From positions 8,090,986 to 8,154,985 of the forward strand of contig NC_091116.1 in assembly GCF_024713975.1 (NCBI RefSeq): a stretch of 64,000 nt of DNA, written 5' to 3'. Numbering within the stretch: the first letter of the stretch is position 1; each line of letters opens with the position of its first letter. The DNA is from Paralichthys olivaceus. Its lineage: Eukaryota; Chordata; Actinopteri; Pleuronectiformes; Paralichthyidae. The translations under genes and the position numbers were made by a program. Below the pieces are notes generated by a model, which made no database searches, was not told the origin of the DNA, and saw nothing but the letters and a program-made list of their open reading frames with translations. Shown piece by piece: positions 22,640-53,620 of this stretch.

Positions 22640-23846
22640 AAAAAAAAGCAGTGTCTGCATTGTTCTTTACAAAGTCAAACATTTATTGTATGAAGGGAAA
22701 AATGCTTGAAGATGTGTCTTGTCTGTGAATCACTGAACTTGTATTTAGTTGTACAAGCAGTGTGTTTGAGAACTGCCTCACATGTGTGTTGCATGGAGTC
22801 GACCAAGTTGTGTCACCTGTGTACAGGTATTGTAGTCCAGGATGATCGGAGTGGCCACTCCATTATGTTAGTGTTGCTGGATGTTGAAGATGCTGCGTGC
22901 TTACTTGTGTGTTTGGGGTGGTTGTCTAGTTGAAAGACACATTTGAAGGGTGTCTCCTCTTTGGCATAAGGCAACATGATGTCTTGAAGTATTGTGCTTG
23001 TGCTACCATGCTTCAACAATGGGACTTTGCTTAGGTGTCATTTAGGTTATTGTCTGATTCATCTAAATGGTAGTGTTCTGTTGTCTCCCTTGTCTTTGTG
23101 GTTTTGGTTGCTATTTTAAAGGATTTGAGATGATTGAAGTTGAGCGGTTTGTACTTTTCTTGTTGTCTTGATACTTTTGAATCAAAGTATGCTGTTGTTG
23201 TGAACAATGACCCATGTTCCAGTGATTTTCAGACAAATGCACTAGAACCAGCATGTAGAACATTTGCTGCCTTGGTCCTTAAATGAGGGCCACCTGTTTG
23301 ACTTGAGTAATAGAACTCCACACTGCTGTTATTTTGAACACAACCTTTTCAATTACATAGCATCAACAGCATGTGTACTATATCTACTCATAAAGTATTT
23401 GCCTACTAAAAATAGTGATTGATGTGGTTAGTGATGTTGGACTGCTATTTTATATATATATATATTGTTTTTAATATAAACACAATGACTGTTGTTTAAG
23501 GTGGTGAACTTGTGTTAGGGTTGTGTCTTGTCATGCCTCTGTCACAATAGAAAGGTGATTGTCCAGCCAGGAAAATGCCCAGGTGAGTATGTTTCTATTT
23601 TCTATCTTCTATCACCAGTATATTTGTATTTACCATGTGTGTGTCCCTCCAGTAGTAGTTGTACAGTTCAGTGTTTGTTCATTAAATCAAAAGAGACTTT
23701 ATAATGTGTGTTTGTAATCCATGTCATGTGTTACAGGTTTGCTGAAGCACCTGGATTGTGTCACTGCTGGATTTGTGAGAAGATTTGAACAGTTATTGTT
23801 TCAATGTAGTTGATCTATTGCTGCTTGTTCCATGTGAGAAGTAGAG
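22640..23846 (+). repeat. Monomer 1.0: first array unit of copy 1, atypical
   Basis: Lacks the left Tc1 end and begins at an A-rich tract. It keeps the right Tc1 end (to 23,343) plus about 155 bases of flank not seen in later monomers, then E1 and E5 only. E5 is followed by GTGAGA. Confidence 0.75.
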
Positions 23847-25450
23847 TTGTTCAAAATAATAGCAGTGTTAATAAAAAAAAAATAATAATGAAAAAAAAAA
23901 AAGATAGTGTCTGCATTGTTGTTTACAAAGTCAAACATTTATTGTATGAAGGGAAAAATGCTAGAAGATGTGTCTTGTCTGTGAATCACTGAAATTGTAT
24001 TTAGTTGTATTAGCAATTGTTTGAGAACTGCTTCACATGTGTGTTGCATGGAGTCGACCAAGTTGTGTCACCTGTGTACACGTGTTGTAGTCCAGGATGA
24101 TCGGAGTGGCCACTCCATTATGTTAGTGTTGTTGGATGTTGAAGATGCTGTGTGCTTACTTGTGTGTTTGGGGTGGTTGTCTAGTTGAAAGACACATTTG
24201 AAGGGTGTCTCCTCTTTGGCATAAGTCACCACGATGTCTTGAAGTATTGTGCTTGTGCTACCATGCTTCAACAATGGGACTTTGCTTAGGTGTCATTTAG
24301 GTTATTGTCTGATTCATCTGAATGGTAGTGTTCTGTTGTCTTCCACGTCTTTGTGGTTTTGGTTGCTATTTTAAAGGATTTGAGATGATTGTAGTTGAGC
24401 GGTTAGTACTTTTCTGGTTGTCTTGATACTTTTGAATCAAAGTATGCTGTTGTGTACAATGACCCATGTTCCAGTGATTTTCAGACAAATGCACTAGAAC
24501 TAACATGTAGAACATTTGCTGCCTTGGTCCTTAAATGAGGGCCAGCTGTTTGACTTGAGTAATAGAACTCCACACTGCTGTTATTTTGAACACAATGACT
24601 GTTGTTGAAAGTGGTGAAATTGTGTTAGGGTTCTGTCTTGTCATGCCTCTGTCACAATAGAGAGGTGATTGTTCAGCCAGGAAAAGTCCCAGGTGAGTGT
24701 TTCTATTCTTCTCAAAAATCTATTGGGTGAACCTGCATGGTTTTCTAATTTGTAATTTAGTTTTGTGTAAGTCCAGTTTTTGTATGAATGCCACACAGTG
24801 TTTGCTAAATGATACCCCTGATGTTTTCTCTGTCTGTCATACAGGGCCGATGAGGACAGCGGCTCACTCGTTATGTGGAGCGATGTTGTTTGAGGTAAGT
24901 AATGTATTAAGAGCAAATAGTCTGAATAATCTGTACACACTGACGTTGTTTATAGTTGTAAAAAAATAAAGACGACCACTTCTGTCCCCTTTTAGACATT
25001 GTACTGAAAGTCCTTGGTGGTGGGAGGGAACCACATGGAAAGTGGTGAGTGTGATCTAAAATAGATTATCAGCTTTTAAAGATTGTTGTTTAGCAGCAAG
25101 TAGGTATGTGTTCCTCCAGGTAAGCCATAAGTCCTGGTTACTGTATGTCCTTCATGTGTTTCAGGTGTTATTGTGTCTACCAGGTTGTACTTCATGTGGA
25201 CCTAAGAAACCTCTAAGCTGTTCCACCAGTGTTATTGAGGATCAACAGTGGTAAGTGGTTGTACAGTTCAGTGTTTGTTCATTAAATCAAAAGAGACTTT
25301 ATATTAATGTGTGTTTGTAAACCATGTCATGTGTTACAGGTTTGTTGAAGCACCTGGATTGTGTCACTGCTGGATTTGTGAGTACATTTGAACAGTTATT
25401 GGTTTGAATGTAGTTGATCTATTGCTGCTTGTTCCATGTGAGATGTAGAG
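23847..25450 (+). repeat. Monomer 1.1: full length, E1-E5
   Basis: Tc1 relic of 751 bases (to about 24,595) followed by all five blocks. E2 is 24,845-24,894, E3 24,996-25,044, E4 25,165-25,250 and E5 25,340-25,377. Confidence 0.8.
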
Positions 25451-27062
25451 TTGTGTTCAAAATAATAGCAGTGTGTTTTAAACAATAAAATAAAATAAAA
25501 GATAGCAGTGTCTGCATTGTTCTTTACAAAGTCAAACATTTATTGTATGAAGTGAAAAATGCTAGAAGATGTGTCTTGTCTGTGAATCACTGAACTTGTA
25601 TTTAGTTGTACAAGCAGTGTGTTTGAGAACTGCTTCACATGTGTGTTGCATGGAGTCGACCAAGTTGTGTCAGCTGTGTACAGGTATTGTAGTCCAGGAT
25701 GATCGGAGTGGCCACTCCATTATGTTAGTGTTGTTGGATGTTGAAGATGCTGCGTGCTTACTTGTGTGTTTGGGGTGGTTGTCTTGTTGAAAGACACATT
25801 TGAAGGGTGTCTCCTCTTTGGCATAAGTCAACATGATGTCTTGAAGTATTGTGCTTGTGCTACCATGCTTCAACAATGGGACTTTGCAGAGGTGTCATTT
25901 AGGTTATTGTCTGATTCATCTGAATGGTAGTGTTCTGTTGTCTCCCACGTCTTTGTGGTTTTGGTTGTTATTTTAAAGGATTTGAGATGATTGTAGTTGA
26001 GCGGTTTGTACTTTTCTAGTTGTCTTGATACTTTTGAATCAAAGTATGCGGTTGTTGTGAACAATGACCCATGTTCCAGTGATTTTCAGACAAATGCACT
26101 AGAACTAGCATGTAGAACATTTGCTGCCTTGGTCCTTAAATGACGGCCAGCTGTTTGACTTGAGTAATAGAACTCCACACTGCTGTTATTTTGAACACAA
26201 TGACTGTTGTTGAAAGTGGTGAAATTGTGTTAGGGTTGTGTCTTGTCATGCCTCTGTCACAATAGAAAGGTGATTGTTCAGCCACGAAAAGTCCCAGGTG
26301 AGTATGTTTCTATTCTTTTCTCTTCTCAAAAATCTATTGGGTGAACCTGCATAGTTTTCTAAATAGTAATTTACTTTTATGTAAGTCTAGTTTTTGTATG
26401 AATGCCACACAGTGTTTGCTAAATGAGACCCCTGATGTTTTCTCTGTCTGTCATACAGGGCCGATGAGGACAGCGGCTCACTCGTTAGGTGGAGCGATGT
26501 TGTTTGAGGTAAGTAATGTATTAAGAGCAAATAGTCTGAATAATCTGTACACACTGACGTTGTTAAAGTTGTAAAAAAATAAAGACGACCACTTCTGTCC
26601 CCTTCCAGACATTGTACTGAAAGTCCTTGGTGGTGGGAGGGAACCACATGGAAAATGGTGAGTTTGATCTAAAATAGATTATCAGCTTTTAAAGATTGTT
26701 GTTTAGCAGCAAGTAGGTATGTGTTCCTCCAGGTGAGCCATAAGTCCTGGTTACTGTATGTCCTTCATGTGTTTCAGGTGTTATTGTGTCTACCAGGTTG
26801 TACTTCATGTGGACCTAAGAAACCTCTAAGCTGTTCCACCAGTGTTACTGAGGATCAACAGTGGTAAGTGGTTGTACAGTTCAGTGTTTGTTCATTAAAT
26901 CAAAAGAGACTTTATATGAATGTGTGTTTGTAAACCATGTTATGTGTTACAGGTTTGTTGAAGCACCTGGATTGTGTCACTGCTGGATTTGTGAGTAGAT
27001 TTGAACAGTTATTGTTTGAATGTATTTGATCTATTGCTGCTTGTTCCATGTGAGATGTAGAG
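25451..27062 (+). repeat. Monomer 1.2: full length, E1-E5
   Basis: Medium Tc1 relic (to 26,200), then all five blocks. Confidence 0.8.
26201..26990 (+). other. Representative exon-like blocks E1-E5 of one full-length monomer
   Basis: In this monomer the blocks are E1 up to 26,297 (donor GTGAGT; its 5' edge is uncertain, either at a TTTCAG inside the Tc1 relic or at CACAATAG near 26,265), E2 26,459-26,508 (50 bases), E3 26,609-26,657 (49), E4 26,778-26,863 (86) and E5 26,953-26,990 (38). Introns are 90-161 bases. Joining E3-E4-E5 leaves a 44-codon frame from an ATG at the E3 end, but that ATG is GTG in the monomer at 23,847. Another frame is open across E3 and most of E4. Neither is persuasive as a protein. 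Confidence 0.5.
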
Positions 27063-28138
27063 TTGTGTTCAGAATAATAGCAGTGTGTTCATAAAAAAAT
27101 TAAATGAAAAAAAAAAAAAAAAAAGATAGTGTCTGCATTGTTCTTTACAAAGTCAAACATTTATTGTAAGAAGTGAAAAATGCTAGAAGATGTGTCTTGT
27201 CTGTGAATCACTGAACTTGTATTTAGTTGTACAAGCAGTGTGTTTGAGAACTGCTTCACATGTGTGTTGCATGGAGTTGACCAAGTTGTGTCACCTGTGT
27301 ACAGGTATTGTAGTCCAGGATGATCGGAGTGGCCACTCCATTATGTTAGTGGTGTTGGATGTTGAAGATGCTGCGTGCTTCTATGTCTTTGTGGTTTTGG
27401 TTGCTATTTTAAAGGATTTGAGATGATTGTAGTTGAGCGGTTTGTACTTTTCTGGTTGTCTTGATACTTTTGAATCAAAGTATGCTGTTGTTGTGAACAA
27501 TGACCCATGTTCCAGTGATTTTCAGACAAATGCACTAGAACTAGCATGTAGAACATTTGCTGCCTTGGTCCTTAAATGACGGCCACCTGTTTGACTTGAG
27601 TAATAGAACTCCACACTGCTGTTATTTTGAACACAATGACTGTTGTTGAAAGTGGTGAAATTGTGTTAGGGTTGTGTCTTGTCATGCCTCTGTCACAATA
27701 GAAAGGTGATTGTTCAGCCAGGAAAAGTCCCAGGTGAGTATGTTTCTATTCTTTTCTCTTCTCAAAAATCTATTGGGTAAACTTGCTGCACTTGCTATCT
27801 AGGTGTGTGTCCCTCCATGTGAGCCATAACTCCATTTCCTTCATGTGTTTCAGGTGTTATTGTGTCTACCAGGTTGTACTTCATGTGGACCTAAGAAACC
27901 TCTAAGCTGTTCCACCAGTGTTACTGAGGATCAACAGTGGTAAGTGGTTGTACAGTTCAGTGTTTGTTCATTAAATCAAAAGAGACTTTATATGAATGTG
28001 TGTTTGTAAACCATGTCATGTGTTACAGGTTTGTTGAAGCACCTGGATTGTGTCACTGCTGGATTTGTGAGTAGATTTGAACAGTTATTGTTTGAATGTA
28101 GTTGATCTATTGCTGCTTGTTCCATGTGAGATGTAGAG
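27063..28138 (+). repeat. Monomer 1.3: shortened, E1, E4, E5
   Basis: Tc1 relic shortened to about 575 bases, and E2 and E3 removed. The left end has the GTTCAGAATAAT variant and an A run of 18. Confidence 0.8.
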
Positions 28139-28994
28139 TTGTGTTCAAAATAATAGCAGTGTTAATAAATAAAAAATTAATAATAAATAAAAGATAGTTT
28201 CTGCATTGTTGTTTACAAAGTCAAACATTTATTGTAAGAAGTGAAAAATGCTAGAAGATGTGTCTTGTCTGTGAATCACTGAACTTGTATTTAGTTGTAC
28301 AAGCAGTGTGTTTGAGAACTGCTTCACATGTGTGTTGCATGGACTCAACCAAGTTGTGTCACCTGTGTACAGGTATTGTAGTCCAGGATGATCGGAGTGG
28401 CCACTCCATTATGTTAGTGTTGCTGGATGTAGAAGATGCTGTGTGCTTACTTGTGTGTTTGGGGTGGTTGTCTTGTTGAAAGACACATTTGAAGGGTGTC
28501 TCCTCTTTGGCATAAGTCAACACGATGTCTTGAAGTATTGTGCTTGTGCCACCATGCTTCACCGTGTTCTGTGGTTTGAACAGTGTTGCCTTCATCACTC
28601 CACAAAATGTTGTGGTATTTTCCTTTAAGGAAAATTGTAACCTCTTCAGCACATGTTAATTTTTCAACAATGGGACTTTGCATAGGTGTCATTTTGGTTA
28701 TTGTTTGATTCATCTGAATGGTAGTGTTCTGTTGTCTCCCATGTGTTTGTGGTTTTGGTTGCTATTTTAAAGGATTTGAGATGATTGTAGTTGAACAGTT
28801 TGTACTTTTCTGGTTGTCTTGATACTTTTGAATCAAAGTATGCTGTTGTTGTGAACAATGACCCATGTTCCAGTGATTTTCAGACAAATGCACTAGAACT
28901 AGCATGTAGAACATTTGCTGCCTTGGTCCTTAAATGAGGGCCACCTGTTTGACTTGAGTAATAGAACTCCACACTGCTGTTATTTTGAACACAA
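28139..28994 (-). mobile_element. Tc1-like DNA transposon relic, longest version
   Basis: Inverted ends: TTGTGTTCAAAATAATAGCA on the left and its near-complement TGCTGTTATTTTGAACACAA on the right. On the minus strand, transposase relics are readable: an ILWSDE-like catalytic stretch, then FQQDNHPKHTSKH and MEWP, the well-known Tc1 core around the second catalytic Asp. Intact Tc1 elements are about 1.6 kb with about 340 codons. This is 856 bases with stops and frame changes, and the last catalytic region is missing, so it cannot make transposase. Equivalent relics occupy the left part of every monomer. Confidence 0.85.
28359..28652 (-). pseudogene. Tc1 transposase fragment (97 codons)
   Basis: Longest surviving piece of the transposase, with KHGG, the QQDNHPKHTSKH core and MEWP. 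The canonical continuation SPDLNPIE is absent, replaced by RSSWTT and a stop soon after. Sister frames of 97 codons occur at 42,273, 47,559, 50,341 and 52,053, and shorter ones of 68-69 codons at 22,813, 24,068, 25,670, 39,596 and 62,268. Confidence 0.8.
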
Positions 28995-29842
28995 TGACTG
29001 TTGTTGAAAGTGGTGAAATTGTGTTAGGGTTCTGTCTTGTCATGCCTCTGTCACAATAGAAAGGTGAATGTCCAGCCAGGAAAAGTCCCAGGTGAGTATG
29101 TTTCTATTCTTTTCTCTTCTCAAAAATCTATTGGGTGCACCTGCATGGTTTTCTAAATAGTAATTTAGTTTTGTGTAAGTCTAGTTTTTGTATGAATGCC
29201 ACACAGTGATGCTAAATGAGACCCTTGATTGTTTTGTCTGTCATACAGGGCCGATGAGGACAGCGGCTCACTCGTTAGGTGGAGCGATGTTGTTTGAGGT
29301 AAGTAATGTATTAAGAGCAAATAGTCTGAATAATCTGTACACACTGACGTTGTTAAAAATAAAGACGACCACTTCTGTCCCCTTCCAGACATTGTACTGA
29401 AAGTCCTTGGTGGTGGGAGGGAACCACATGGAAAATGGTGAGTTTGATCTAAAATAGATTATCAGCTTTTAAAGATTGTTGTTTAGCAGCAAGTAGGTAT
29501 GTGTTCCTCCAGGTGAGCCATAAGTCCTGGTTACTGTATGTCCTTCATGTGTTTCAGGTGTTATTGTGTCTACCAGGTTGTACTTCATGTGGACCTAAGA
29601 AACCTCTAAGCTGTTCCACCAGTGTTACTGAGGATCAACAGTGGTAAGTGGTTGTACAGTTCAGTGTTTGTTCATTAAATCAAAAGAGACTTTATATGAA
29701 TGTGTGTTTGTAAACCATGTCATGTGTTACAGGTTTGTTGAAGCACCTGGATTGTGTCACTGCTGGATTTGTGAGTAGATTTGAACAGTTATTGTTTGAA
29801 TGTAGTTGATCTATTGCAGCTTGTTCCATGTGAGATGTAGAG

Positions 29843-30911
29843 TTGTGTTCAAAATAATAGCAGTGTGTTAATAAATAAAAAAAATTAATAATAAATAAAA
29901 GATAGTGTCTGCATTGTTGTTTACAAAGTCAAACATTTATTGTAAGAAGTGAAAAATGCTAGAAGATGTGTCTTGTCTGTGAATCACTGAACTTGTATTT
30001 AGTTGTACAAGCAGTGTGTTTGAGAACTGCTTCACATGTGTGTTGCATGGACTTGACCAAGTTGCGTCACCTGTGTACAGGTATTGTAGTCCAGGATGAT
30101 CGGAGTGGCCACTCCATTATGTTAGTGTTGTTGGATGTTGAAGATGCTGCGTGCTTCTATGTCTTTGTGGTTTTGGTTGTTATTTTAAAGGATTTGAGAT
30201 GATTGTAGTTGAGCGGTTTGTACTTTTCTGGTTGTCTTGATACTTTTGAATCAAAGTATGCTGTTGTGAACAATGAGCCATGTTCCAGTGATTTTCAGAC
30301 AAATGCACTAGAACTAGCATGTAGAACATTTGCTGCCTTGGTCCTTAAATGAGGGCCACCTGTTTGACTTGAGTAATAGAACTCCACACTGCTGTTATTT
30401 TGAACACAATGACTGTTGTTGAAAGTGGTGAAATTGTGTTAGGGTTCTGTCTTGTCATGCCTCTGTCACAATAGAAAGGTGATTGTTCAGCCAGGAAAAG
30501 TCCCAGGTGAGTATGTTTCTATTCTTTTCTCTTCTCAAAAATCTATTGGGTAAACTTGCTGCACTTGCTAACTAGGTGTGTGTCCCTCCATGTGAGCCAT
30601 AACTCCATTTCCTTCATGTGTTTCAGGTGTTATTGTGTCTACCAGGTTGTACTTCATGTGGACCTAAGAAACCTCTAAGCTGTTCCACCAGTGTTACTGA
30701 GGATCAACAGTGGTAAGTGGTTGTACAGTTCAGTGTTTGTTCATTAAATCAAAAGAGACTTTATATGAATGTGTGTTTGTAATCCATGTCATGTGTTACA
30801 GGTTTGTTGAAGCACCTGGATTGTGTCACTGCTGGATTTGAGAGTAGATTTGAACAGTTATGGTTTGAATGTAGTTGATCTATTGCTGCTTGTTCCATGT
30901 GAGATGTAGAG
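29843..30911 (+). repeat. Monomer 1.5: shortened, mosaic
   Basis: The left end is of the long-monomer type (GTTCAAAATAAT, TAATAAATAAA) but the Tc1 body and exon set (E1, E4, E5) are of the short type, indicating recombination between monomer types. Confidence 0.75.
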
Positions 30912-30985
30912 TTGTGTTAAAAATAATAGCAGTGTGTTAATAAAAAATAAATAAATAAATAAAAGATAGTGTCTGCATTGTTCTT
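30912..30985 (+). repeat. Monomer 1.6: truncated at the L2 LINE
   Basis: Only the left Tc1 end and AT-rich tract remain before sequence switches abruptly to L2 after GTCTGCATTGTTCTT. Confidence 0.8.
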
Positions 30986-33103
30986 AATTACGTCAATTCT
31001 GGACGGAAATTCTATTACAGTCGATTTTTATCCGACAAAACTGTTCACAAATTTAAAGAACTGCTCCCCTCCTCACTTCCCTCTCAGCCATGTCTCAGTA
31101 CAATACAAGAAGATTATCAAAACCTTACTCCCACACTAGTTGATAACTTTGTAAATAGTACTGCAGCCTCACTAAAAACAGCACTTGAAGCTGTCGCCCC
31201 ATTAAAAAAGAAGAAACTAAGTCAGAGGAGATTAGCTCCGTGGTATAATTCCCAAACGCGCGTTCTAAAACAGACATCGCGGAAGCTAGAAAGGAAGTGG
31301 CGTTCCACCAATCGCCAAGACTTCCACCTAGCCTGGAAGAATAGCCTTATAAATGACAAAAAAGCACTTAGAAATGCCCAAACCTCTTATTATTCATTAC
31401 TAATAGAAGAAAATAGGAACAACCCCAGGTTCCTCTTCAGCACTGTAGCCAGGCTGACAGAAAGTCACACCTCTACTGACCCATCTATTCCTCTAGATGT
31501 GAGAAGCAATGACTTCATGAGCTTCTTCACTAATGAAATTACAACCATCAGGGATAAAATCCACCACCTCCTCCCAGTGAATAACACTGATACATTGTCT
31601 GGTCCTGAAACCATAGCACCAGATTTATGTCTAAACAAATTGTATATTTCCATGAAGCATGATGAATCTAATCGCCTATTTCAACTTCAGGAATGTCTCA
31701 AAGATACCAAGGCCTGGATGACCCAAAATGTTCTACTTTTAAACTCAGACAAAACTGAGGTTGTTGTAATTGGCCCTAAACATCTCAGAGAAACACTGTC
31801 TGACCAGATAGTCACTTTGGATGGTGTCAGTCTGGCTTCCAGCTCCACTGTGTGGAACCTTGGAGTGTTGTTCGACCAAGACATGTCATTTGACCCCCAT
31901 ATTAAACTAGTGTCTAGGACGGCTTTCTTCCATCTGCGCAATATTACCAAAATTAGAAACATCCTGTCTAAGCAGGATGCTGAAAAACCAGTCCACGCGT
32001 TTGTAACCTCTAGATTAGATTACTGCAACTCTCTATTAGCAGGATGCTCCATGAAGACTGTTAAAAGTCTCCAGTTGGTCCAAAATGCTGCAGCACGAGT
32101 GCTGACAGGAACTAGAAGGAGAGATCATATCACTCCTGTCTTAGCTTCCTTACATTGGCTCCCGGTAAAATTTAGAATAGAATTCAAGATCCTGCTCCTC
32201 ACTTTTAAAGCCCTCAACAATTACGCCCCTTCATATATCAAAGAGCTGATAACACCTTATTCGTTCCCAAAACACAGGCTCTCTAGTGGTTCCAAGAGTC
32301 TGTAAGAGTAGAGCAGGAGGTAGAACATTTAGCTATCAGGCTCCTCTCCTGTGGAACCAGCTCCCACTCTGGGTTGGGGAGGCAGACAGTGTCCCAGCAT
32401 TTAAAGTAAAACTAAAAAACTTCCTCTTTGACAAAGCCTATAGTTAGGGCTGGATCAGGTGAGTGTTGAACCATCCCTTAGTTGTGCTGCTATAGGTCTA
32501 GACTGCTGGGGGAACTCCCATCATGCATTGAGCACTTCATCACTTCCCTCTGTCTCTCTGCCCCCCCACACCTGTTTATTTATTTATTTATTAGTTTGAT
32601 CATGTCAAAGTGTCACTTTGTCCTCCCATAGTCCCTCTGGCTCTTCTCTCTATCTCGTTTCAGATAACTCCAGCACCGGGACTGCAGGACAACAACGACT
32701 ACCATCACCATTGTCATCATTATTTATTTAGTTATTGTTATAGTCAGCCTTGATACTGATGGTGCCAAATTGTTCCCGGTCTCTCTCTCTCCACCTCATC
32801 TCTCTCTTCTCTCCCCCGCTTTCCACCCATCTCTCCTTTCCTCCCCCCTTACTTTTCTTTCCTCACCCCAACCGGTTGAGGCAGATGACCGCCCACATTG
32901 AGCCTGGTTCTGCCAGAGGTTTCTCCCTGTTAATGAGGGAGTTTTTCCTCTCCACAGTCGCCTGTGCTTGCTCATTGTGGAAACTGTTGGGTTTCTCTAT
33001 GTTAATATTGTTTTAAGGTCTTGACCTTTAAATGTAAAGTGCCTTGAGATAATGTAAATTATGAATTGGCGCTATATAAATAAAATTGAATTGAATTGAA
33101 TTG
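30986..33103 (+). mobile_element. L2-type LINE, 5'-truncated and internally deleted, copy 1
   Basis: The 3' end has the conserved AAAGTGCCTTGAGATAATGT ... GGCGCTATATAAATAAAATT tail and an AATTG repeat, as in fish L2. The 5' edge abuts array monomer 1.6. A frame is open from the 5' edge to 32,305 (about 440 codons) covering the linker after the endonuclease, the end of the reverse transcriptase and the C-terminal region (SRLDYCNSLLAG, HWLPVKFRIEFK). The catalytic palm including the YADD-type motif is missing: the frame passes from PDLCLN straight to KLYISMK. It therefore could not reverse transcribe. Confidence 0.88.
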
Positions 33104-35705: not shown

Positions 35706-35860
35706 AAACTCCACCCCCGCGAGTCTACGTAACTTGGTCTATTCGAAGTTCCCCTTCTCCATATATCCCATTGGAGTGCTCCACTTCCTGTTTGCCAGTC
35801 GGTACTTCCGCTTGGATGCGGAACTGCTTGGATCGGGAGCCCGTAGATCTTCACGAGGTG
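35706..35860 (+). promoter_or_regulatory. Promoter-like module with a first-exon-like donor, copy 2
   Basis: Duplicate of the 17,585-17,740 module with the inverted CCAAT, CACTTCCTG and the donor after TTCACGAG preserved. Confidence 0.35.
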
Positions 35861-36426: not shown

Positions 36427-36565
36427 GAGTTTTTCCTCTCCACAGTCGCCAAAGTGCTGCTCATTGTGGGAACTGTTGGGTTTCTCTATGTTAAATGAGA
36501 TTTTAAAGTGCCTTGAGATAATGTATATTATGATTTGGTGCTATACAAATTAAATTGAATTGAAA
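36427..36565 (+). mobile_element. L2-type LINE 3' tail fragment, copy 2
   Basis: Same insertion as at 18,317, carried along by the segmental duplication. Confidence 0.8.
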
Positions 36566-37232: not shown

Positions 37233-37343
37233 TCTTTCATGTTTGGAAGGAGAAGCTGCAACACACAGCTTCACCACCAGATGTCAGCAGAGTCCACACA
37301 TTTTATCAATAGTGTTGTATCACCCAGCCCTACCAAACCCCAA

Positions 37344-42050: not shown

Positions 42051-43756
42051 TTGTGTTCAAAATAATAGCAGTGTGTTAATAAATAAAAAATTAATAATAA
42101 ATAAAAGATAGTTTCTGCATTGTTGTTTACAAAGTCAAACATTTATTGTATGAAGGGAAAAATGCTAGAAGATGTGTCTTGTCTGTGAATCACTGAACTT
42201 GTATTTAGTTGTACAAGCAGTGTGTTTGAGAACTGCTTCACATGTGTGTTGCATGGACTCAACCAAGTTGTGTCACCTGTGTACAGGTATTATAGTCCAG
42301 GATGATCGGAGTGGCCACTCCATTATGTTAGTGTTGTTGGATGTTGAAGATGCTGCGTGCTTACTTGTGTGTTTGGGGTGGTTGTCTTGTTGAAAGACAC
42401 ATTTGAAGGGTGTCTCCTCTTTGGCATAAGTCAACACAATGTCTTGAAGTATTGTGCTTGTGCTACCATGCTTCACCGTGTTCTGTGGTTTGAACAGTGG
42501 TGATGTCATCACTCCACAAAATGTTGTGGTATTTTCCTTTAAGGAAAATTGTAACCTCTTCAGCACATGTTAATTTTTCAACAATGGGACTTTGCAGAGG
42601 TGTCATTTAGGTTATTGTTTGATTCATCTGAATGGTAGTGTTCTGTTGTCTTCCACGTCTTTGTGGTTTTGGTTGCTATTTTAAAGGATTTGAGATGATT
42701 GTAGTTGAGCGGTTTGTACTTTTCTGGTTGTCTTGATACTTTTGAATCAAAGTATGCGGTTGTTGTGAACAATGACCCATGTTCCAGTGATTTTCAGACA
42801 AATGCACTAGAACTAGCATGTAGAACATTTGCTGCCTTGGTCCTTAAATGACGGCCACCTGTTTGACTTGAGTAATAGAACTCCACACTGCTGTTATTTT
42901 GAACACAATGACTGTTGTTGAAAGTGGTGAAATTGTGTTAGGGTTCTGTCTTGTCATGCCTCTGTCACAATAGAAAGGTGAATGTCCAGCCAGGAAAAGT
43001 CCCAGGTGAGTATGTTTCTATTCTTTTCTCTTCTCAAAAATCTATTGGGTGCACCTGCATGGTTTTCTAAATAGTAATTTAGTTTTGTGTAAGTCTAGTT
43101 TTTGTATGAATGCCACACAGTGATGCTAAATGAGACCCTTGATTGTTTTGTCTGTCATACAGGGCCGATGAGGACAGCGGCTCACTCGTTAGGTGGAGCG
43201 ATGTTGTTTGAGGTAAGTAATGTATTAAGAGCAAATAGTCTGAATAATCTGTACACACTGACGTTGTTAAAAATAAAGACGACCACTTCTGTCCACTTCC
43301 AGACATTGTACTGAAAGTCCATGGTGGTGGGAGGGAACCACATGGAAAATGGTGAGTTTGATCTAAAATAGATTATCAGCTTTTAAAGATTGTTGTTTAG
43401 CAGCAAGTAGGTATGTGTTCCTCCAGGTGAGCCATAAGTCCTGGTTACTGTATGTCCTTCATGTGTTTCAGATGTTATTGTGTCTACCAGGTTGTACTTC
43501 ATGTGGACCTAAGAAACCTCTAAGCTGTTTCACCAGTGTTACTGAGGATCAACAGTGGTAAGTGGTTGTACAGTTCAGTGTTTGTTCATTAAATCAAAAG
43601 AGACTTTATATGAATGTGTGTTTGTGAACCATGTCATGTGTTACAGGTTTGTTGAAGCACCTGGATTGTGTCACTGCTGGATTTGTGAGTAGATTTGAAC
43701 AGTTATTGTTTGAATGTATTTGATCTATTGCTGCTTGTTCCATGTGAGATGTAGAG
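42051..43756 (+). repeat. Monomer 2.2: full length, long Tc1 relic
   Basis: Forms a 2,782-base dimer with monomer 2.1. Confidence 0.8.
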
Positions 43757-44834
43757 TTGTGTTCAGAATAATAGCAGTGTGTTCATAAAAAAATTAAATG
43801 AAAAAAAAAAAAAAAAAAGATAGTGTCTGCATTGTTCTTTACAAAGTCAAACATTTATTGTAAGAAGTGAAAAATGCTAGAAGATGTGTCTTGTCTGTGA
43901 ATCACTGAACTTGTATTTAGTTGTACAAGCAGTGTGTTTGAGAACTGCTTCACATGTGTGTTGCATGGAGTTGACCAAGTTGTGTCACCTGTGTACAGGT
44001 ATTATAGTCCAGGATGATCGGAGTGGCCACTCCATTATGTTAGTGTTGTTGGATGTTGAAGATGCTGCGTGCTTACTTGTGTGTTTGTGGTTTTGGTTGC
44101 TATTTTAAAGGATTTGAGATGATTGTAGTTGAGCGGTTTGTACTTTTCTGGTTGTCTTGATACTTTTGAATCAAAGTATGCTGTTGTTGTGAACAATGAC
44201 CCATGTTCCAGTGATTTTCAGAGAAATGCACTAGAACTAGCATGTAGAACATTTGCTGCCTTGGTCCTTAAATGAGGGCCAGCTGTTTGACTTGAGTAAT
44301 AGAACTCCACACTGCTGTTATTTTGAACACAATGACTGTTGTTGAAAGTGGTGAAATTGTGTTAGGGTTGTGTCTTGTCATGCCTCTGTCACAATAGAAA
44401 GGTGATTGTTCAGCCAGGAAAAGTCCCAGGTGAGTATGTTTCTATTCTTTTCTCTTCTCAAAAATCTATTGGGTAAACTTGCTGCACTTGCTAACTAGGT
44501 GTGTGTCCCTCCATGTGAGCCATAACTCCATTTCCTTCATGTGTTTCAGATGTTATTGTGTCTACCAGGTTGTACTTCATGTGGACCTAAGAAACCTCTA
44601 AGCTGTTCCACCAGTGTTACTGAGGATCAACAGTGGTAAGTGGTTGTACAGTTCAGTGTTTGTTCATTAAATCAAAAGAGACTTTATATGAATGTGTGTT
44701 TGTGAACCATGTCATGTGTTACAGGTTTGTTGAAGCACCTGGATTGTGTCACTGCTGGATTTGTGAGTAGATTTGAACAGTTATTGTTTGAATGTAGTTG
44801 ATCTATTGCTGCTTGTTCCATGTGAGATGTAGAG
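43757..44834 (+). repeat. Monomer 2.3: shortened
   Basis: Short type. Its Tc1 deletion endpoint differs slightly from the other short monomers (CTTACTTGTGTGTTTGTGG near 44,072). Confidence 0.8.
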
Positions 44835-46260
44835 TTGTGTTCAAAATAATAGCAGTGTGTTAATAAATAAAAAATTAATAATAAATAAAAGATAGTTTCT
44901 GCATTGTTGTTTACAAAGTCAAACATTTATTGTATGAAGGGAAAAATGCTAGAAGATGTGTCTTGTCTGTGAATCACTGAACTTGTATTTAGTTGTACAA
45001 GCAGTGTGTTTGAGAACTGCTTCACATGTGTGTTGCATGGACTCAACCAAGTTGTGTCACCTGTGTACAGGTATTGTAGTCCAGGATGATCGGAGTGGCC
45101 ACTCCATTATGTTAGTGTTGTTGGATGTTGAAGATGCTGCGTGCTTCTATGTCTTTGTGGTTTTGGTTGTTATTTTAAAGGATTTGAGATGATTGTAGTT
45201 GAGCGGTTTGTACTTTTCTGGTTGTCTTGATACTTTTGAATCAAAGTATGCTGTTGTTGTGAACAATGACCCATGTTCCAGTGATTTTCAGACAAATGCA
45301 CTAGAACTAGCATGTAGAACATTTGCTGCCTTGGTCCTTAAATGAGGGCCAGCTGTTTGACTTGAGTAATAGAACTCCACACTGCTGTTATTTTGAACAC
45401 AATGACTGTTGTTGAAAGTGGTGAAATTGTGTTAGGGTTGTGTCTTGTCATGCCTCTGTCACAATAGAAAGGTGATTGTTCAGCCACGAAAAGTCCCAGG
45501 TGAGTATGTTTCTATTCTTTTCTCTTCTCAAAAATCTATTGGGTGAACCTGCATGGTTTTCTAAATAGTAATTGAGTTTTGTGTAAGTCTAGTTTTTGTA
45601 TGAATGCCACACAGTGATGCTAAATGAGACCCTTGATTGTTTTGTCTGTCATACAGGGCCGATGAGGACAGCGGCTCACTGGTTAGGTGGAGCGATGTTG
45701 TTTGAGGTAAGTAATGTATTAAGAGCAAATAGTCTGAATAATCTGTACACACTGACGTTGTTAAAGTTGTAAAAAAATAAAGACGACCACTTCTGTCCCC
45801 TTCCAGACATTGTACTGAAAGTCCTTGGTGGTGGGAGGGAACCACATGGAAAATGGTGAGTTTGATCTAAAATAGATTATCAGCTTTTAAAGATTGTTGT
45901 TTAGCAGCAAGTAGGTATGTGTTCCTCCAGGTGAGCCATAAGTCCTGGTTACTGTATGTCCTTCATGTGTTTCAGATGTTATTGTGTCTACCAGGTTGTA
46001 CTTCATGTGGACCTAAGAAACCTCTAAGCTGTTCCACCAGTGTTACTGAGGATCAACAGTGGTAAGTGGTTGTACAGTTCAGTGTTTGTTCATTAAATCA
46101 AAAGAGACTTTATATGAATGTGTGTTTGTAAACCATGTCATGTGTTACAGGTTTGTTGAAGCACCTGGATTGTGTCACTGCTGGATTTGTGAGTAGATTT
46201 GAACAGTTATTGTTTGAATGTAGTTGATCTATTGCTGCTTGTTCCATGTGAGATGTAGAG
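44835..46260 (+). repeat. Monomer 2.4: mosaic, short Tc1 with E1-E5
   Basis: Left end of the long type, Tc1 body of the short type, exon set of the long type. The length of about 1.43 kb is unique in the array. Confidence 0.8.
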
Positions 46261-47336
46261 TTGTGTTCAGAATAATAGCAGTGTGTTCATAAAAAAATTA
46301 AATGAAAAAAAAAAAAAAAAAAGATAGTGTCTGCATTGTTCTTTACAAAGTCAAACATTTATTGTAAGAAGTGAAAAATGCTAGAAGATGTGTCTTGTCT
46401 GTGAATCACTGAACTTGTATTTAGTTGTACAAGCAGTGTGTTTGAGAACTGCTTCACATGTGTGTTGCATGGAGTTGACCAAGTTGTGTCACCTGTGTAC
46501 AGGTATTATAGTCCAGGATGATCGGAGTGGCCACTCCATTATGTTAGTGTTGTTGGATGTTGAAGATGCTGCGTGCTTCTATGTCTTTGTGGTTTTGGTT
46601 GCTATTTTAAAGGATTTGAGATGATTGTAGTTGAGCGGTTTGTACTTTTCTGGTTGTCTTGATACTTTTGAATCAAAGTATGCTGTTGTTGTGAACAATG
46701 ACCCATGTTCCAGTGATTTTCAGACAAATGCACTAGAACTAGCATGTAGAACATTTGCTGCCTTGGTCCTTAAATGAGGGCCAGCTGTTTGACTTGAGTA
46801 ATAGAACTCCACACTGCTGTTATTTTGAACACAATGACTGTTGTTGAAAGTGGTGAAATTGTGTTAGGGTTGTGTCTTGTCATGCCTCTGTCACAATAGA
46901 AAGGTGAATGTCCAGCCAGGAAAAGTCCCAGGTGAGTATGTTTCTATTCTTTTCTCTTCTCAAAAATCTATTGGGTAAACTTGCTGCACTTGCTAACTAG
47001 GTGTGTGTCCCTCCATGTGAGCCATAACTCCATTTCCTTCATGTGTTTCAGATGTTATTGTGTCTACCAGGTTGTACTTCATGTGGACCTAAGAAACCTC
47101 TAAGCTGTTCCACCAGTGTTACTGAGGATCAACAGTGGTAAGTGGTTGTACAGTTCAGTGTTTGTTCATTAAATCAAAAGAGACTTTATATGAATGTGTG
47201 TTTGTAAACCATGTTATGTGTTACAGGTTTGTTGAAGCACCTGGATTGTGTCACTGCTGGATTTGTGAGTAGATTTGAACAGTTATTGTTTGAATGTAGT
47301 TGATCTATTGCTGCTTGTTCCATGTGAGATGTAGAG
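46261..47336 (+). repeat. Monomer 2.5: shortened
   Basis: Short type, E1, E4, E5. Confidence 0.8.
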
Positions 47337-49042
47337 TTGTGTTCAAAATAATAGCAGTGTGTTAATAAATAAAAAATTAATAATAAATAAAAGATAGTTT
47401 CTGCATTGTTGTTTACAAAGTCAAACATTTATTGTATGAAGGGAAAAATGCTAGAAGATGTGTCTTGTCTGTGAATCACTGAACTTGTATTTAGTTGTAC
47501 AAGCAGTGTGTTTGAGAACTGCTTCACATGTGTGTTGCATGGACTCAACCAAGTTGTGTCACCTGTGTACAGGTATTGTAGTCCAGGATGATCGGAGTGG
47601 CCACTCCATTATGTTAGTGTTGTTGGATGTTGAAGATGCTGTGTGCTTACTTGTGTGTTTGGGGTGGTTGTCTTGTTGAAAGACACATTTGAAGGGTGTC
47701 TCCTCTTTGGCATAAGTCAACACAATGTCTTGAAGTATTGTGCTTGTGCTACCATGCTTCACCGTGTTCTGTGGTTTGAACAGTGGTGATGTCATCACTC
47801 CACAAAATGTTGTGGTATTTTCCTTTAAGGAAAATTGTAACCTCTTCAGCACATGTTAATTTTTCAACAATGGGACTTTGCAGAGGTGTCATTTAGGTTA
47901 TTGTTTGATTCATCTGAATGGTAGTGTTCTGTTGTCTTCCACGTCTTTGTGGTTTTGGTTGCTATTTTAAAGGATTTGAGATGATTGTAGTTGAGCGGTT
48001 TGTACTTTTCTGGTTGTCTTGATACTTTTGAATCAAAGTATGCGGTTGTTGTGAACAATGACCCATGTTCCAGTGATTTTCAGACAAATGCACTAGAACT
48101 AGCATGTAGAACATTTGCTGCCTTGGTCCTTAAATGAGGGCCACCTGTTTGACTTGAGTAATAGAACTCCACACTGCTGTTATTTTGAACACAATGACTG
48201 TTGTTGAAAGTGGTGAAATTGTGTTAGGGTTCTGTCTTGTCATGCCTCTGTCACAATAGAAAGGTGATTGTTCAGCCACGAAAAGTCCCAGGTGAGTATG
48301 TTTCTATTCTTTTCTCTTCTCAAAAATCTATTGGGTGAACCTGCATGGTTTTCTAAATAGTAATTGAGTTTTGTGTAAGTCTAGTTTTTGTATGAATGCC
48401 ACACAGTGATGCTAAATGAGACCCTTGATTGTTTTGTCTGTCATACAGGGCCGATGAGGACAGCGGCTCACTCGTTAGGTGGAGCGATGTTGTTTGAGGT
48501 AAGTAATGTATTAAGAGCAAATAGTCTGAATAATCTGTACACACTGACGTTGTTAAAAATAAAGACGACCACTTCTGTCCACTTCCAGACATTGTACTGA
48601 AAGTCCTTGGTGGTGGGAGGGAACCACATGGAAAATGGTGAGTTTGATCTAAAATAGATTATCAGCTTTTAAAGATTGTTGTTTAGCAGCAAGTAGGTAT
48701 GTGTTCCTCCAGGTGAGCCATAAGTCCTGGTTACTGTATGTCCTTCATGTGTTTCAGGTGTTATTGTGTCTACCAGGTTGTACTTCATGTGGACCTAAGA
48801 AACCTCTAAGCTGTTCCACCAGTGTTACTGAGGATCAACAGTGGTAAGTGGTTGTACAGTTCAGTGTTTGTTCATTAAATCAAAAGAGACTTTATATGAA
48901 TGTGTGTTTGTAAACCATGTCATGTGTTACAGGTTTGTTGAAGCACCTGGATTGTGTCACTGCTGGATTTGTGAGTAGATTTGAACAGTTATTGTTTGAA
49001 TGTATTTGATCTATTGCTGCTTGTTCCATGTGAGATGTAGAG
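47337..49042 (+). repeat. Monomer 2.6: full length, long Tc1 relic
   Basis: Dimer with 2.5, period 2,782. Confidence 0.8.
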
Positions 49043-50118
49043 TTGTGTTCAGAATAATAGCAGTGTGTTCATAAAAAAATTAAATGAAAAAAAAAAAAAA
49101 AAAAGATAGTGTCTGCATTGTTCTTTACAAAGTCAAACATTTATTGTAAGAAGTGAAAAATGCTAGAAGATGTGTCTTGTCTGTGAATCACTGAACTTGT
49201 ATTTAGTTGTACAAGCAGTGTGTTTGAGAACTGCTTCACATGTGTGTTGCATGGAGTTGACCAAGTTGTGTCACCTGTGTACAGGTATTATAGTCCAGGA
49301 TGATCGGAGTGGCCACTCCATTATGTTAGTGTTGTTGGATGTTGAAGATGCTGCGTGCTTCTATGTCTTTGTGGTTTTGGTTGCTATTTTAAAGGATTTG
49401 AGATGATTGTAGTTGAGCGGTTTGTACTTTTCTGGTTGTCTTGATACTTTTGAATCAAAGTATGCTGTTGTTGTGAACAATGACCCATGTTCCAGTGATT
49501 TTCAGACAAATGCACTAGAACTAGCATGTAGAACATTTGCTGCCTTGGTCCTTAAATGAGGGCCAGCTGTTTGACTTGAGTAATAGAACTCCACACTGCT
49601 GTTATTTTGAACACAATGACTGTTGTTGAAAGTGGTGAAATTGTGTTAGGGTTGTGTCTTGTCATGCCTCTGTCACAATAGAAAGGTGAATGTCCAGCCA
49701 GGAAAAGTCCCAGGTGAGTATGTTTCTATTCTTTTCTCTTCTCAAAAATCTATTGGGTAAACTTGCTGCACTTGCTAACTAGGTGTGTGTCCCTCCATGT
49801 GAGCCATAACTCCATTTCCTTCATGTGTTTCAGATGTTATTGTGTCTACCAGGTTGTACTTCATGTGGACCTAAGAAACCTCTAAGCTGTTCCACCAGTG
49901 TTACTGAGGATCAACAGTGGTAAGTGGTTGTACAGTTCAGTGTTTGTTCATTAAATCAAAAGAGACTTTATATGAATGTGTGTTTGTAAACCATGTTATG
50001 TGTTACAGGTTTGTTGAAGCACCTGGATTGTGTCACTGCTGGATTTGTGAGTAGATTTGAACAGTTATTGTTTGAATGTAGTTGATCTATTGCTGCTTGT
50101 TCCATGTGAGATGTAGAG
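49043..50118 (+). repeat. Monomer 2.7: shortened
   Basis: Nearly identical to 2.5. Confidence 0.8.
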
Positions 50119-51824
50119 TTGTGTTCAAAATAATAGCAGTGTGTTAATAAATAAAAAATTAATAATAAATAAAAGATAGTTTCTGCATTGTTGTTTACAA
50201 AGTCAAACATTTATTGTATGAAGGGAAAAATGCTAGAAGATGTGTCTTGTCTGTGAATCACTGAACTTGTATTTAGTTGTACAAGCAGTGTGTTTGAGAA
50301 CTGCTTCACATGTGTGTTGCATGGACTCAACCAAGTTGTGTCACCTGTGTACAGGTATTATAGTCCAGGATGATCGGAGTGGCCACTCCATTATGTTAGT
50401 GTTGTTGGATGTTGAAGATGCTGTGTGCTTACTTGTGTGTTTGGGGTGGTTGTCTTGTTGAAAGACACATTTGAAGGGTGTCTCCTCTTTGGCATAAGTC
50501 AACACAATGTCTTGAAGTATTGTGCTTGTGCTACCATGCTTCACCGTGTTCTGTGGTTTGAACAGTGGTGATGTCATCACTCCACAAAATGTTGTGGTAT
50601 TTTCCTTTAAGGAAAATTGTAACCTCTTCAGCACATGTTAATTTTTCAACAATGGGACTTTGCAGAGGTGTCATTTAGGTTATTGTTTGATTCATCTGAA
50701 TGGTAGTGTTCTGTTGTCTTCCACGTCTTTGTGGTTTTGGTTGCTATTTTAAAGGATTTGAGATGATTGTAGTTGAGCGGTTTGTACTTTTCTGGTTGTC
50801 TTGATACTTTTGAATCAAAGTATGCGGTTGTTGTGAACAATGACCCATGTTCCAGTGATTTTCAGACAAATGCACTAGAACTAGCATGTAGAACATTTGC
50901 TGCCTTGGTCCTTAAATGAGGGCCACCTGTTTGACTTGAGTAATAGAACTCCACACTGCTGTTATTTTGAACACAATGACTGTTGTTGAAAGTGGTGAAA
51001 TTGTGTTAGGGTTCTGTCTTGTCATGCCTCTGTCACAATAGAAAGGTGAATGTCCAGCCAGGAAAAGTCCCAGGTGAGTATGTTTCTATTCTTTTCTCTT
51101 CTCAAAAATCTATTGGGTGCACCTGCATGGTTTTCTAAATAGTAATTTAGTTTTGTGTAAGTCTAGTTTTTGTATGAATGCCACACAGTGATGCTAAATG
51201 AGACCCTTGATTGTTTTGTCTGTCATACAGGGCCGATGAGGACAGCGGCTCACTCGTTAGGTGGAGCGATGTTGTTTGAGGTAAGTAATGTATTAAGAGC
51301 AAATAGTCTGAATAATCTGTACACACTGACGTTGTTAAAAATAAAGACGACCACTTCTGTCCACTTCCAGACATTGTACTGAAAGTCCTTGGTGGTGGGA
51401 GGGAACCACATGGAAAATGGTGAGTTTGATCTAAAATAGATTATCAGCTTTTAAAGATTGTTGTTTAGCAGCAAGTAGGTATGTGTTCCTCCAGGTGAGC
51501 CATAAGTCCTGGTTACTGTATGTCCTTCATGTGTTTCAGGTGTTATTGTGTCTACCAGGTTGTACTTCATGTGGACCTAAGAAACCTCTAAGCTGTTCCA
51601 CCAGTGTTACTGAGGATCAACAGTGGTAAGTGGTTGTACAGTTCAGTGTTTGTTCATTAAATCAAAAGAGACTTTATATGAATGTGTGTTTGTAAACCAT
51701 GTCATGTGTTACAGGTTTGTTGAAGCACCTGGATTGTGTCACTGCTGGATTTGTGAGTAGATTTGAACAGTTATTGTTTGAATGTATTTGATCTATTGCT
51801 GCTTGTTCCATGTGAGATGTAGAG
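50119..51824 (+). repeat. Monomer 2.8: full length, long Tc1 relic
   Basis: Dimer with 2.7, nearly identical to 2.6. Confidence 0.8.
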
Positions 51825-53546
51825 TTGTGTTCAGAATAATAGCAGTGTGTTCATAAAAAAATTAAATGAAAAAAAAAAAAAAAAAAGATAGTGTCTGCAT
51901 TGTTCTTTACAAAGTCAAACATTTATTGTAAGAAGTGAAAAATGCTAGAAGATGTGTCTTGTCTGTGAATCACTGAACTTGTATTTAGTTGTACAAGCAG
52001 TGTGTTTGAGAACTGCTTCACATGTGTGTTGCATGGAGTTGACCAAGTTGTGTCACCTGTGTACAGGTATTATAGTCCAGGATGATCGGAGTGGCCACTC
52101 CATTATGTTAGTGTTGTTGGATGTTGAAGATGCTGCGTGCTTACTTGTGTGTTTGGGGTGGTTGTCTAGTTGAAAGACACATTTGAAGGGTGTCTCCTCT
52201 TTGGCATAAGTCAACACAATGTCTTGAAGTATTGTGCTTGTGCTACCATGCTTCACCGTGTTCTGTGGTTTGAACAGTGGTGATGTCATCACTCCACAAA
52301 ATGTTGTGGTATTTTCCTTTAAGGAAAATTGTAACCTCTTCAGCACATGTTAATTTTTCAACAATGGGACTTTGCAGAGGTGTCATTTAGGTTATTGTTT
52401 GATTCATCTGAATGGTAGTGTTCTGTTGTCTCCCACGTCTTTGTGGTTTTGGTTGTTATTTTAAAGGATTTGAGATGATTGTAGTTGAGCGGTTAGTAGT
52501 TTTCTGGTTGTCTTGATACTTTTGAATCAAAGTATGCTGTTGTTGTGAACAATGACCCATGTTCCAGTGATTTTCAGACAAATGCACTAGAACTAGCATG
52601 TAGAACATTTGCTGCCTTGGTCCTTAAATGAGGGCCAGCTGTTTGACTTGAGTAATAGAACTCCACACTGCTGTTATTTTGAACACAATGACTGTTGTTG
52701 AAAGTGGTGAAATTGTGTTAGGGTTGTGTCTTGTCATGCCTCTGTCACAATAGAAAGGTGATTGTTCAGCCACGAAAAGTCCCAGGTGAGTATGTTTCTA
52801 TTCTTTTCTCTTCTCAAAAATCTATTGGGTGAACCTGCATGGTTTTCTAAATAGTAATTTAGTTTTGTGTAAGTCTAGTTTTTGTATGAATGCCACACAG
52901 TGATGCTAAATGAGACCCTTGATTGTTTTGTCTGTCATACAGGGCCGATGAGGACAGCGGCTCACTCGTTAGGTGGAGCGATGTTGTTTGAGGTAAGTAA
53001 TGTATTAAGAGCAAATAGTCTGAATAATCTGTACACACTGACGTTGTTAAAGTTGTAAAAAAATAAAGACGACCACTTCTGTCCACTTCCAGACATTGTA
53101 CTGAAAGTCCTTGGTGGTGGGAGGGAACCACATGGAAAATGGTGAGTTTGATCTAAAATAGATTATCAGCTTTTAAAGATTGTTGTTTAGCAGCAAGTAG
53201 GTATGTGTTCCTCCAGGTGAGCCATAAGTCCTGGTTACTGTATGTCCTTCATGTGTTTCAGGTGTTATTGTGTCTACCAGGTTGTACTTCATGTGGACCT
53301 AAGAAACCTCTAAGCTGTTCCACCAGTGTTACTGAGGATCAACAGTGGTAAGTGGTTGTACAGTTCAGTGTTTGTTCATTAAATCAAAAGAGACTTTATA
53401 TTAATGTGTGTTTGTGAACCATGTCATGTGTTACAGGTTTGTTGAAGCACCTGGATTGTGTCACTGCTGGATTTGAGAGTAGATTTGAACAGTTATGGTT
53501 TGAATGTAGTTGATCTATTGCTGCTTGTTCCATGTGAGATGTAGAG
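51825..53546 (+). repeat. Monomer 2.9: full length with a short-type left end
   Basis: The left end has the GTTCAGAATAAT variant and long A run of short monomers, but the Tc1 body is the long type and E1-E5 are all present. Another mosaic. Confidence 0.8.
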
Positions 53547-53620
53547 TTGTGTTAAAAATAATAGCAGTGTGTTAATAAAAAATAAATAAATAAATAAAAG
53601 ATAGTGTCTGCATTGTTCTT
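53547..53620 (+). repeat. Monomer 2.10: truncated at the L2 LINE
   Basis: Same truncation point as monomer 1.6. Confidence 0.8.

Follow-up and report, generated by a model that had tools for sequence, protein, structure and literature searches.

The 64-kb window (the whole stretch of DNA that was analysed) contains a tandem array in which short, exon-like blocks and a dead Tc1 transposon have been amplified together, as an earlier note on this DNA had proposed. Self-comparison and a block map confirm the array and resolve 17 regular tandem units of approximately 1.1-1.7 kb, of which ten have the order X-C-D-A-B, six have the order X-A-B and one, the first in the array, is degenerate and carries X and B only; the block counts are X 17, C 10, D 10, A 16 and B 17. 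The Tc1 relics are located between the units and the plus-strand splice borders on them. The expectation of sixteen or more monomers between 22,640 and 53,620 is borne out, with 16 of the 17 units lying there, though this interval is not array throughout: it holds two sub-arrays, but 30,983-38,740 is non-array sequence, after which comes an LTR copy at 38,741-39,410. The features are as follows.

20615..21966, plus strand: 5' extension of the head, full length in seven clusters on chromosome C24 and partial in an eighth
21,119-21,320: dispersed repeat of about 200 bases inside the head extension
21776..22555, plus strand: LTR-retroelement relic, with a partial LTR (about 21,776-21,930), an internal piece (about 21,941-22,214) and a second LTR (about 22,300-22,542)
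22344..22432, plus strand: putative LTR-derived exon with the donor CAGAAG/GTAGGT, where '/' is the splice border
22640..30982, plus strand: first sub-array (self-comparison, block map)
30,959-32,305: ORF of 448 amino acids, presumably LINE-like, within or at the edge of the non-array block; no Pfam match
30983..38740, no strand assigned: non-array block, comprising this ORF and a copy of the flank 17,257-20,614
38741..39410, plus strand: LTR head of the second sub-array, without the 20,615-21,966 extension
39411..53620, plus strand: second sub-array (self-comparison, block map)
47329..48206, minus strand: representative long Tc1 relic, its transposase sense on the minus strand
48260..48291, plus strand: representative exon block X, 32 nt; AG in 73/73 and GT in 75/75 copies; 8/32 sites variable
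48449..48498, plus strand: representative exon block C, 50 nt; AG in 37/37 and GT in 38/38 copies
48589..48637, plus strand: representative exon block D, 49 nt; AG in 38/38 and GT in 38/38 copies
48758..48843, plus strand: representative exon block A, 86 nt; AG in 68/69 and GT in 69/69 copies
48933..48970, plus strand: representative exon block B, 38 nt; AG in 65/65 copies; donor GT in 55/64 and GA in 9/64
61413..64000, plus strand: LTR head and beginning of a third sub-array, which runs out of the window end

The window also shows a larger duplicated block with a unit of about 22.6 kb, and array copies continue beyond it along the chromosome as far as about 8.19 Mb. An upstream stretch at 20,645, considered as a terminal coding exon, found no support in the related places L041 and L042.

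The earlier note described up to five short blocks with plus-strand acceptors and donors whose borders are kept in most copies, and both observations stand. Scored with splice-site matrices, one monomer contains four chained acceptor-donor pairs on the plus strand and none on the minus strand; 500 dinucleotide shuffles gave a mean of 0.49 chained pairs and a maximum of 3, none of the 500 reaching four. The plus-strand splice architecture thus exceeds chance expectation. Consensus AG/GT borders in many copies are a feature that the array shares with multicopy spliced sex-chromosome transcripts of the Pirmy or TTTY kind, the splicing itself being putative here.

The cassette is also apparently non-coding, as had been suggested. 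Stops occur in every reading frame of both spliced units and Pfam returned no match better than E=1.1, and coding exons are rejected on these grounds. Changes at all seven listed variable positions of exon A (counted by hand) would alter the 44-codon D-A-B frame, implying that no micro-peptide is protected, which weighs against the explanation favoured below. A search for processed copies with the spliced 255-nt query gave exon-by-exon array matches only, among the best 40 of 340 candidates scored. Structured or small RNAs fared little better as candidates: Rfam gave no match at its gathering score across the 64-kb window and, at relaxed settings in 2.8 kb, only weak hits to miR-430 (E=0.89) and, on the minus strand, to SCARNA18 (E=0.56); the spliced unit folds no better than shuffled sequences (z=-0.32; 64/200 shuffles fold at least as well), a point against the explanation that we favour below; and the best hairpin in a sliding-window scan (z -3.1) is weak and lies inside the relic.

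The scale of the amplification, the LTR head and a strand-specific loss of C, none of which featured in the earlier note, extend this picture. A genome search found 338 copies of exon A and 253 of exon C; for each, all of the 100 places listed lie on C24, a chromosome of 14.7 Mb, such that the family is limited to this chromosome as far as seen. In a sex-chromosome test, amh and dmrt1 are each single and found only on C3 and C4, respectively, which says little about C24. A scan of viral contigs with exon A gave no matches, and our literature search found no publication describing this array.

The 5' head (20,615-22,555) belongs to the unit. The LTR-retroelement occurs upstream of sub-arrays, on the same strand, at at least 25 places on C24, and at at least 15 dispersed places outside C24 (among the best 40 of 102 candidates scored). 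The donor CAGAAG/GTAGGT is present at 14/14 distinct C24 LTR places and in 0/3 of the aligned dispersed copies. At 4.41 (+), 4.87 (-), 5.82 (-), 8.11 (+), 10.90 (+) and 11.27 (-) Mb the longer head lies ahead of the array, in the array's sense direction; fragments of the head extension also lie at 9.74 and 9.86 Mb, with no array within the 10 kb read at each. The locus has the arrangement by which LTR-driven lncRNAs are recognised, a sense-oriented LTR upstream with a splice donor. The LTR head on C24 appears to have acquired this donor and, if the array is transcribed, now heads hundreds of tandem cassettes.

The earlier note asked whether the conserved splice borders reflect function or recent copying. 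Copying explains most of the identity: among 37 copies the mean distance is 1.1% within clusters and 1.55% between clusters, and 13/37 have their nearest relatives only in a different cluster. It does not fully account for the kept exons, since C, D, A and B together vary less (19/223 sites) than the introns (83/549, p=0.014) or the Tc1 relic (138/878, p=0.005) of the same copies, in tests that are not fully independent, the copies being related and partly picked by similarity to the query. A single indel was found in these four exons, against 32 and 36 in introns and relic. Block X, on the other hand, is unconstrained among copies and varies more than the introns; with X included, the exon-intron difference (27/255 vs 83/549, p=0.098) is not significant, which counts against our preferred explanation, as does the GA donor of B.

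In the window, 14 relics keep both terminal repeats, and relics at the edges of sub-arrays are without one end. Elsewhere in the genome, related elements encode a transposase with HTH_Tnp_Tc3_2 and DDE_3 domains, in minus-strand orientation with respect to the array, and a Tc1 query is 77-91% identical to the 23 leading places outside the arrays; terminal inverted repeats and a Tc1 transposase in relatives place the element in the Tc1/mariner group. The relic, about 19% diverged from live-looking relatives, is depleted of C. Changes toward and away from G/T number 79:13 among fixed differences and 33:41 among segregating ones (OR 7.5, p=2e-8), and on the sense strand 32 C>G changes stand against 2 G>C (p=1.4e-6, with an old subfamily as outgroup). 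These data show that the loss of sense-strand C from the relic predates the amplification. Rare variants among the copies are near-symmetric per site (C>T at 17/256 C vs G>A at 24/403 G; C>G 13/256 vs G>C 11/403), and ongoing strand-biased mutation is therefore rejected as the main cause. A deaminase-only model is insufficient, the bias extending to changes at A and T as well (22:7 fixed vs 13:27 segregating, p=0.0006). Selection for low C in the mature RNA is unsupported, C being slightly more frequent in exon (40/223) than in intron positions (54/419, p=0.10).

We consider it moderately probable that the array belongs to an ampliconic, LTR-headed family of spliced non-coding transcription units that, as far as seen, is confined to one chromosome. 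The LTR relic at the head, which in its C24 form has a splice donor, would provide the promoter and the first exon; the transcript would proceed on the plus strand across the tandem X-(C-D)-A-B cassettes; the Tc1 relics would be intronic and antisense to their own transposase; and the spliced product would be a long repeated-exon RNA with no reading frame. Copy number may have grown as monomers were exchanged unequally, larger blocks were duplicated and sequence was transferred between clusters that lie megabases from one another. Transcription, promoter activity, splicing and function are in this proposal all predicted from the sequence. We favour it because five independent plus-strand signs agree, namely the splice chain, the orientation of the LTR, its donor, the low variation of the exons and the sense-strand loss of C; the unconstrained exon X is a point against it. 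If the array is transcribed, it offers a vertebrate setting in which to ask what causes chromosome-limited amplification (drive, gonad dosage or recombination-poor regions).

A possible, though on balance doubtful, alternative is passive amplification, in which a piece of a splice-bearing locus that was dead, or had never functioned, was multiplied along with its Tc1 relic by unequal exchange on a duplication-prone chromosome; its splice sites would then persist only through the recency of copying, and the array would yield no useful product. The small distances between copies fit such a history, the 13 copies with nearest relatives only in another cluster suggest that exchange alone keeps the copies alike, and the variation of X above that of the introns and the loss of the B donor in 9/64 copies are what it would lead one to expect; it sits less well with variation in C, D, A and B at half that of introns and relic, with one indel against 68, and with an LTR donor that is invariant at 14 places. 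That the array is instead a piRNA source of the Su(Ste) kind, aimed at Tc1 or another gene and with the Tc1 giving antisense or dual-strand transcription, seems rather unlikely. A dead transposon in a repeat unit of several hundred copies is shared with Su(Ste) (PMC7874207), an RNA from the plus strand would be antisense to the Tc1 transposase, and the clusters are large and one-stranded, but the relic, so diverged and stripped of C, is a poor guide, and the search for a target gene was saturated by array copies, with no other among the best 40 of 340 candidates scored.

Spliced lengths of 255 nt and 156 nt, both multiples of three, are what a decayed protein-coding tandem-exon gene, with the array as its pseudogene cassettes, might have left; the fact that each unit, once spliced, has stops in all three frames, the Pfam result and the variants of exon A, which favour no codon position when counted by hand, nonetheless make such an origin improbable. 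Least probable of all, we feel, is a host gene for intronic small RNAs of the SNHG14/SNORD116 or miRNA-cluster type. Tandem non-coding exons with repeated introns recall SNHG14 (PMC7917289), but no Rfam family reached its gathering score in the window and the best hairpin falls in the relic.

The suggestion that this arrangement matches no known family is not supported, as multicopy spliced Y transcripts (Pirmy) and transposon-bearing tandem repeats (Su(Ste)) are published, and the array appears comparable to both. On the ampliconic human Y, the TTTY families likewise give rise to spliced non-coding transcripts from many copies, though they are not known to form tight tandem cassettes of a few short exons. 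Pirmy and Pirmy-like RNAs of the mouse Y long arm are, according to the sections of the source relied on here (PMC8428117), non-coding and multi-exon, with consensus AG/GT junctions, and the present array shares with them this architecture and exons that recur many times over, at several loci on a single chromosome. Pirmy is Y-linked and proven by cDNA; RNA from the present array is a prediction, and the array's regular tandem units of about 1.1-1.7 kb, its LTR head and the Tc1 relic in each unit are not features of Pirmy in those sections. Su(Ste), on the Drosophila melanogaster Y, is gene-derived with the coding counterpart Stellate, and the hoppel element in its promoter starts an antisense RNA, piRNAs having been shown. 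Repeats arrayed in tandem by the hundred on a single chromosome, the broken frame and the defective transposon per unit are common to both (PMC7874207), whereas in the present array the Tc1 lies between exon sets; a search for a coding counterpart of the array parts returned array copies alone among the best 40 of 340 candidates scored. SNHG14, with its SNORD116 and SNORD115 clusters, resembles the array in its clustered repeat units, whose non-coding exons are joined in a single long transcript (PMC7917289), a transcript that is predicted in our case; unlike those clusters, the array has an LTR head and a transposon in the unit, and Rfam, which covers known families only, detected no snoRNA here nor, beyond the weak matches at relaxed settings, the intron-by-intron small RNA genes of snoRNA or miRNA hosts.

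As a rare internal clock and recorder of strand, the relic carried in each unit can be tested against models of mutation and selection; what it records is an old, strand-biased removal of sense-strand C that has since stopped or weakened. We speculate, tentatively, that the founding cassette was long transcribed in the germline before amplification, either with the displaced sense strand deaminated at C and error-prone repair giving C to T and C to G changes, or with its RNA selected for G+U richness; the hundreds of array copies might then be a fossil of a vertebrate non-coding RNA that underwent germline hypermutation, or selection, specific to one strand. Pairwise counts for the head, in which the same sites recur, show no more than a mild asymmetry that is not consistent.

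The window holds 17 array units, ten of the type X-C-D-A-B, six of the type X-A-B and one, at the left edge, with X and B alone, where the letters denote putative short exon blocks on the plus strand. A dead Tc1 transposon (the relic) sits between each B and the following X; 14 relics in the window keep both terminal repeats and those at sub-array edges are without one. This is vertebrate DNA, with an APP amyloid-beta exon and ATP synthase coupling factor 6 in the left flank of the window (Pfam). A bigger unit of about 22.6 kb is duplicated (30,570-41,307 vs 53,195-63,979, identity 98.9%) and contains a copy of the left flank and a 448-aa open frame, which has no Pfam match and which we take to be LINE-like. 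Every flank copy carries a 39-base short tandem repeat (19,028-19,118, 37,137-37,232 and 59,807-59,902).

Array features in the window
22,640-30,982: first sub-array
30,959-32,305 and 53,594-54,940: two copies of the 448-aa open frame, in the block separating sub-arrays
39,411-53,620: second sub-array
From after 61.4 kb: third sub-array

Across the genome searched (588 Mb, 25 contigs), exon A occurs 338 times, 212 forward and 126 reverse (30-base word, up to 3 mismatches; the word read backwards occurs 0 times), and exon C 253 times (29-base word). All 100 exon A and all 100 exon C places among the matches listed lie on one 14.7-Mb chromosome, C24, as do the scored matches of further searches with array parts; the window itself occupies C24:8,090,986-8,154,985.

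Array clusters on C24
4.41-4.76 Mb (approximate, as all below), plus: cluster
4.83-4.87 Mb, minus: cluster
5.70-5.82 Mb, minus: cluster
8.11-8.19 Mb, plus: cluster
8.24 Mb, minus: cluster
10.48 Mb, plus: cluster
10.90-10.91 Mb, plus: cluster
11.17-11.27 Mb, minus: cluster

Heads stand in facing orientation in three pairs, at 4.41+/4.87-, 8.11+/8.24- and 10.90+/11.27- Mb. Among 37 X-C-D-A-B copies the mean distance is 1.10% within clusters and 1.55% between them, the nearest copy lying only in the same cluster for 20, only in another for 13 and in both for 4. Two exon A words 83 bases apart (C24:4,648,390 and 4,648,473) mark a local duplication within one monomer.

The sequence heading the first sub-array falls into two parts. 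The segment 21,967-22,640 is present at 25 places on C24 with 93-100% identity, and fragments of it (about 76-89%) occur at 15 places off C24 among the 40 scored of 102 candidates; the dispersed fragments belong to an LTR retroelement, as their order on chromosome C21 (LTR, internal piece, LTR) illustrates. The extension 20,615-21,966 is found in the window only at the first sub-array, and since it is full length in seven clusters and partial in an eighth there is approximately one per cluster. A putative splice donor, CAGAAG|GTAGGT, stands in the C24 LTR at 14/14 distinct places (one reading CAAAAG|GTAGGT), and its GT is absent from 3/3 dispersed copies aligned, out of the 15 dispersed places. 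The head extension (window 20.4-21.8 kb) also has diverged copies at C24:9,736,001-9,746,000 and C24:9,855,001-9,865,000, with no array in either 10-kb stretch; ankyrin-type exons beside the latter copy resemble those of nfkbiz.

A simple splice-site scan found four chained acceptor-donor pairs in one monomer and 0 on its minus strand, where 500 dinucleotide shuffles averaged 0.49 and never exceeded 3; the splice architecture exceeds chance. In sampled copies the AG and GT borders are kept in 73/73 and 75/75 for X, 37/37 and 38/38 for C, 38/38 and 38/38 for D, 68/69 and 69/69 for A, and 65/65 and 55/64 for B, whose donor has become GA in 9/64 copies and so offers a natural test case for splicing. 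An adjacent acceptor and donor, TTCCTCCAG|GTGAGC at 48,712/48,713, with equivalents in X-C-D-A-B units, resembles a recursive splice site; in X-A-B units its AG is gone.

In an alignment of the window with 29 loci (172 rows, depth 37-75 in exons), exons C, D, A and B vary at 19/223 sites, introns at 83/549 (Fisher p=0.014) and the relic at 138/878 (p=0.005), with 1, 32 and 36 distinct indels, respectively. Exon X varies at 8/32 sites, and with it included the comparison with introns gives p=0.098. Because many loci were best matches to an exon-region query and the copies are related to each other, the lower exon variation is support and not proof. Coding signal is absent from the cassette: all spliced frames of the units contain stops, a Pfam search of the array gave no match better than E=1.1, and the 7 variable sites of exon A show no codon-position preference. 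The spliced lengths, 255 nt (X-C-D-A-B) and 156 nt (X-A-B), are multiples of three despite the lack of an open frame.

The array is most likely a set of LTR-headed units giving a spliced, non-coding RNA of repeated exons. The LTR head would supply both the first exon and the start, from which transcription would proceed along the plus strand through the cassettes; the Tc1 relics would be excised along with the introns, and the product would be a long non-coding RNA of repeated exons; amplification would have acted at the level of monomer, block and cluster. In this proposed working the array is most like Pirmy, a mouse Y family described as proven, multicopy, spliced and non-coding (PMC8428117), and in anatomy it is like the proven Su(Ste), several hundred repeats with a defective transposon in each (PMC7874207); the array is at most a candidate member of either kind. 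SNHG14, in the account consulted, also has clustered units with non-coding exons (PMC7917289), but no snoRNA was found in the array (Rfam). The combination of an LTR head, a donor confined to the C24 copies examined, a Tc1 in each unit and a fossil strand bias was not found in the literature searched.

The plus strand of the array is G/T-rich (GC skew about 0.2, TA skew about 0.15), a skew that drops off in the non-array block, and relatives at 20 loci elsewhere in the genome allow changes in the relic to be polarised. Against their majority (693 sites) we counted C>T 32 vs G>A 5, C>G 26 vs G>C 3, T>G 18 vs A>C 4 and A>G 12 vs T>C 4. With an older Tc1 subfamily as reference, C>G stands at 32/181 C vs G>C at 2/133 G (p=1.4e-6), and in columns where all relatives agree at 10/77 vs 2/65 (p=0.038). 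When five old Tc1 copies were each left out in turn as controls, the C>G/G>C imbalance was absent in 4/5, one (L060) having a weak one (8 vs 0, p=0.012), and an excess of C over G mutation was present in 0/5.

Selection on the spliced RNA is disfavoured, and a process acting on the gene or its precursor favoured, by the C content, which is lowest in introns and relic and not in exons, a difference that is not significant. A deaminase with error-prone repair on an exposed sense strand would account for C>T together with C>G, and transcription-linked asymmetry for A>G; the bias is not confined to C, and neither process by itself accounts for all the changes. Changes toward vs away from G/T number 79:13 when fixed in the array and 33:41 among segregating variants (OR 7.5, p=2e-8), so that the bias is older than the amplification and not the present mode of copy change; for A vs T the counts are 22:7 fixed and 13:27 segregating.
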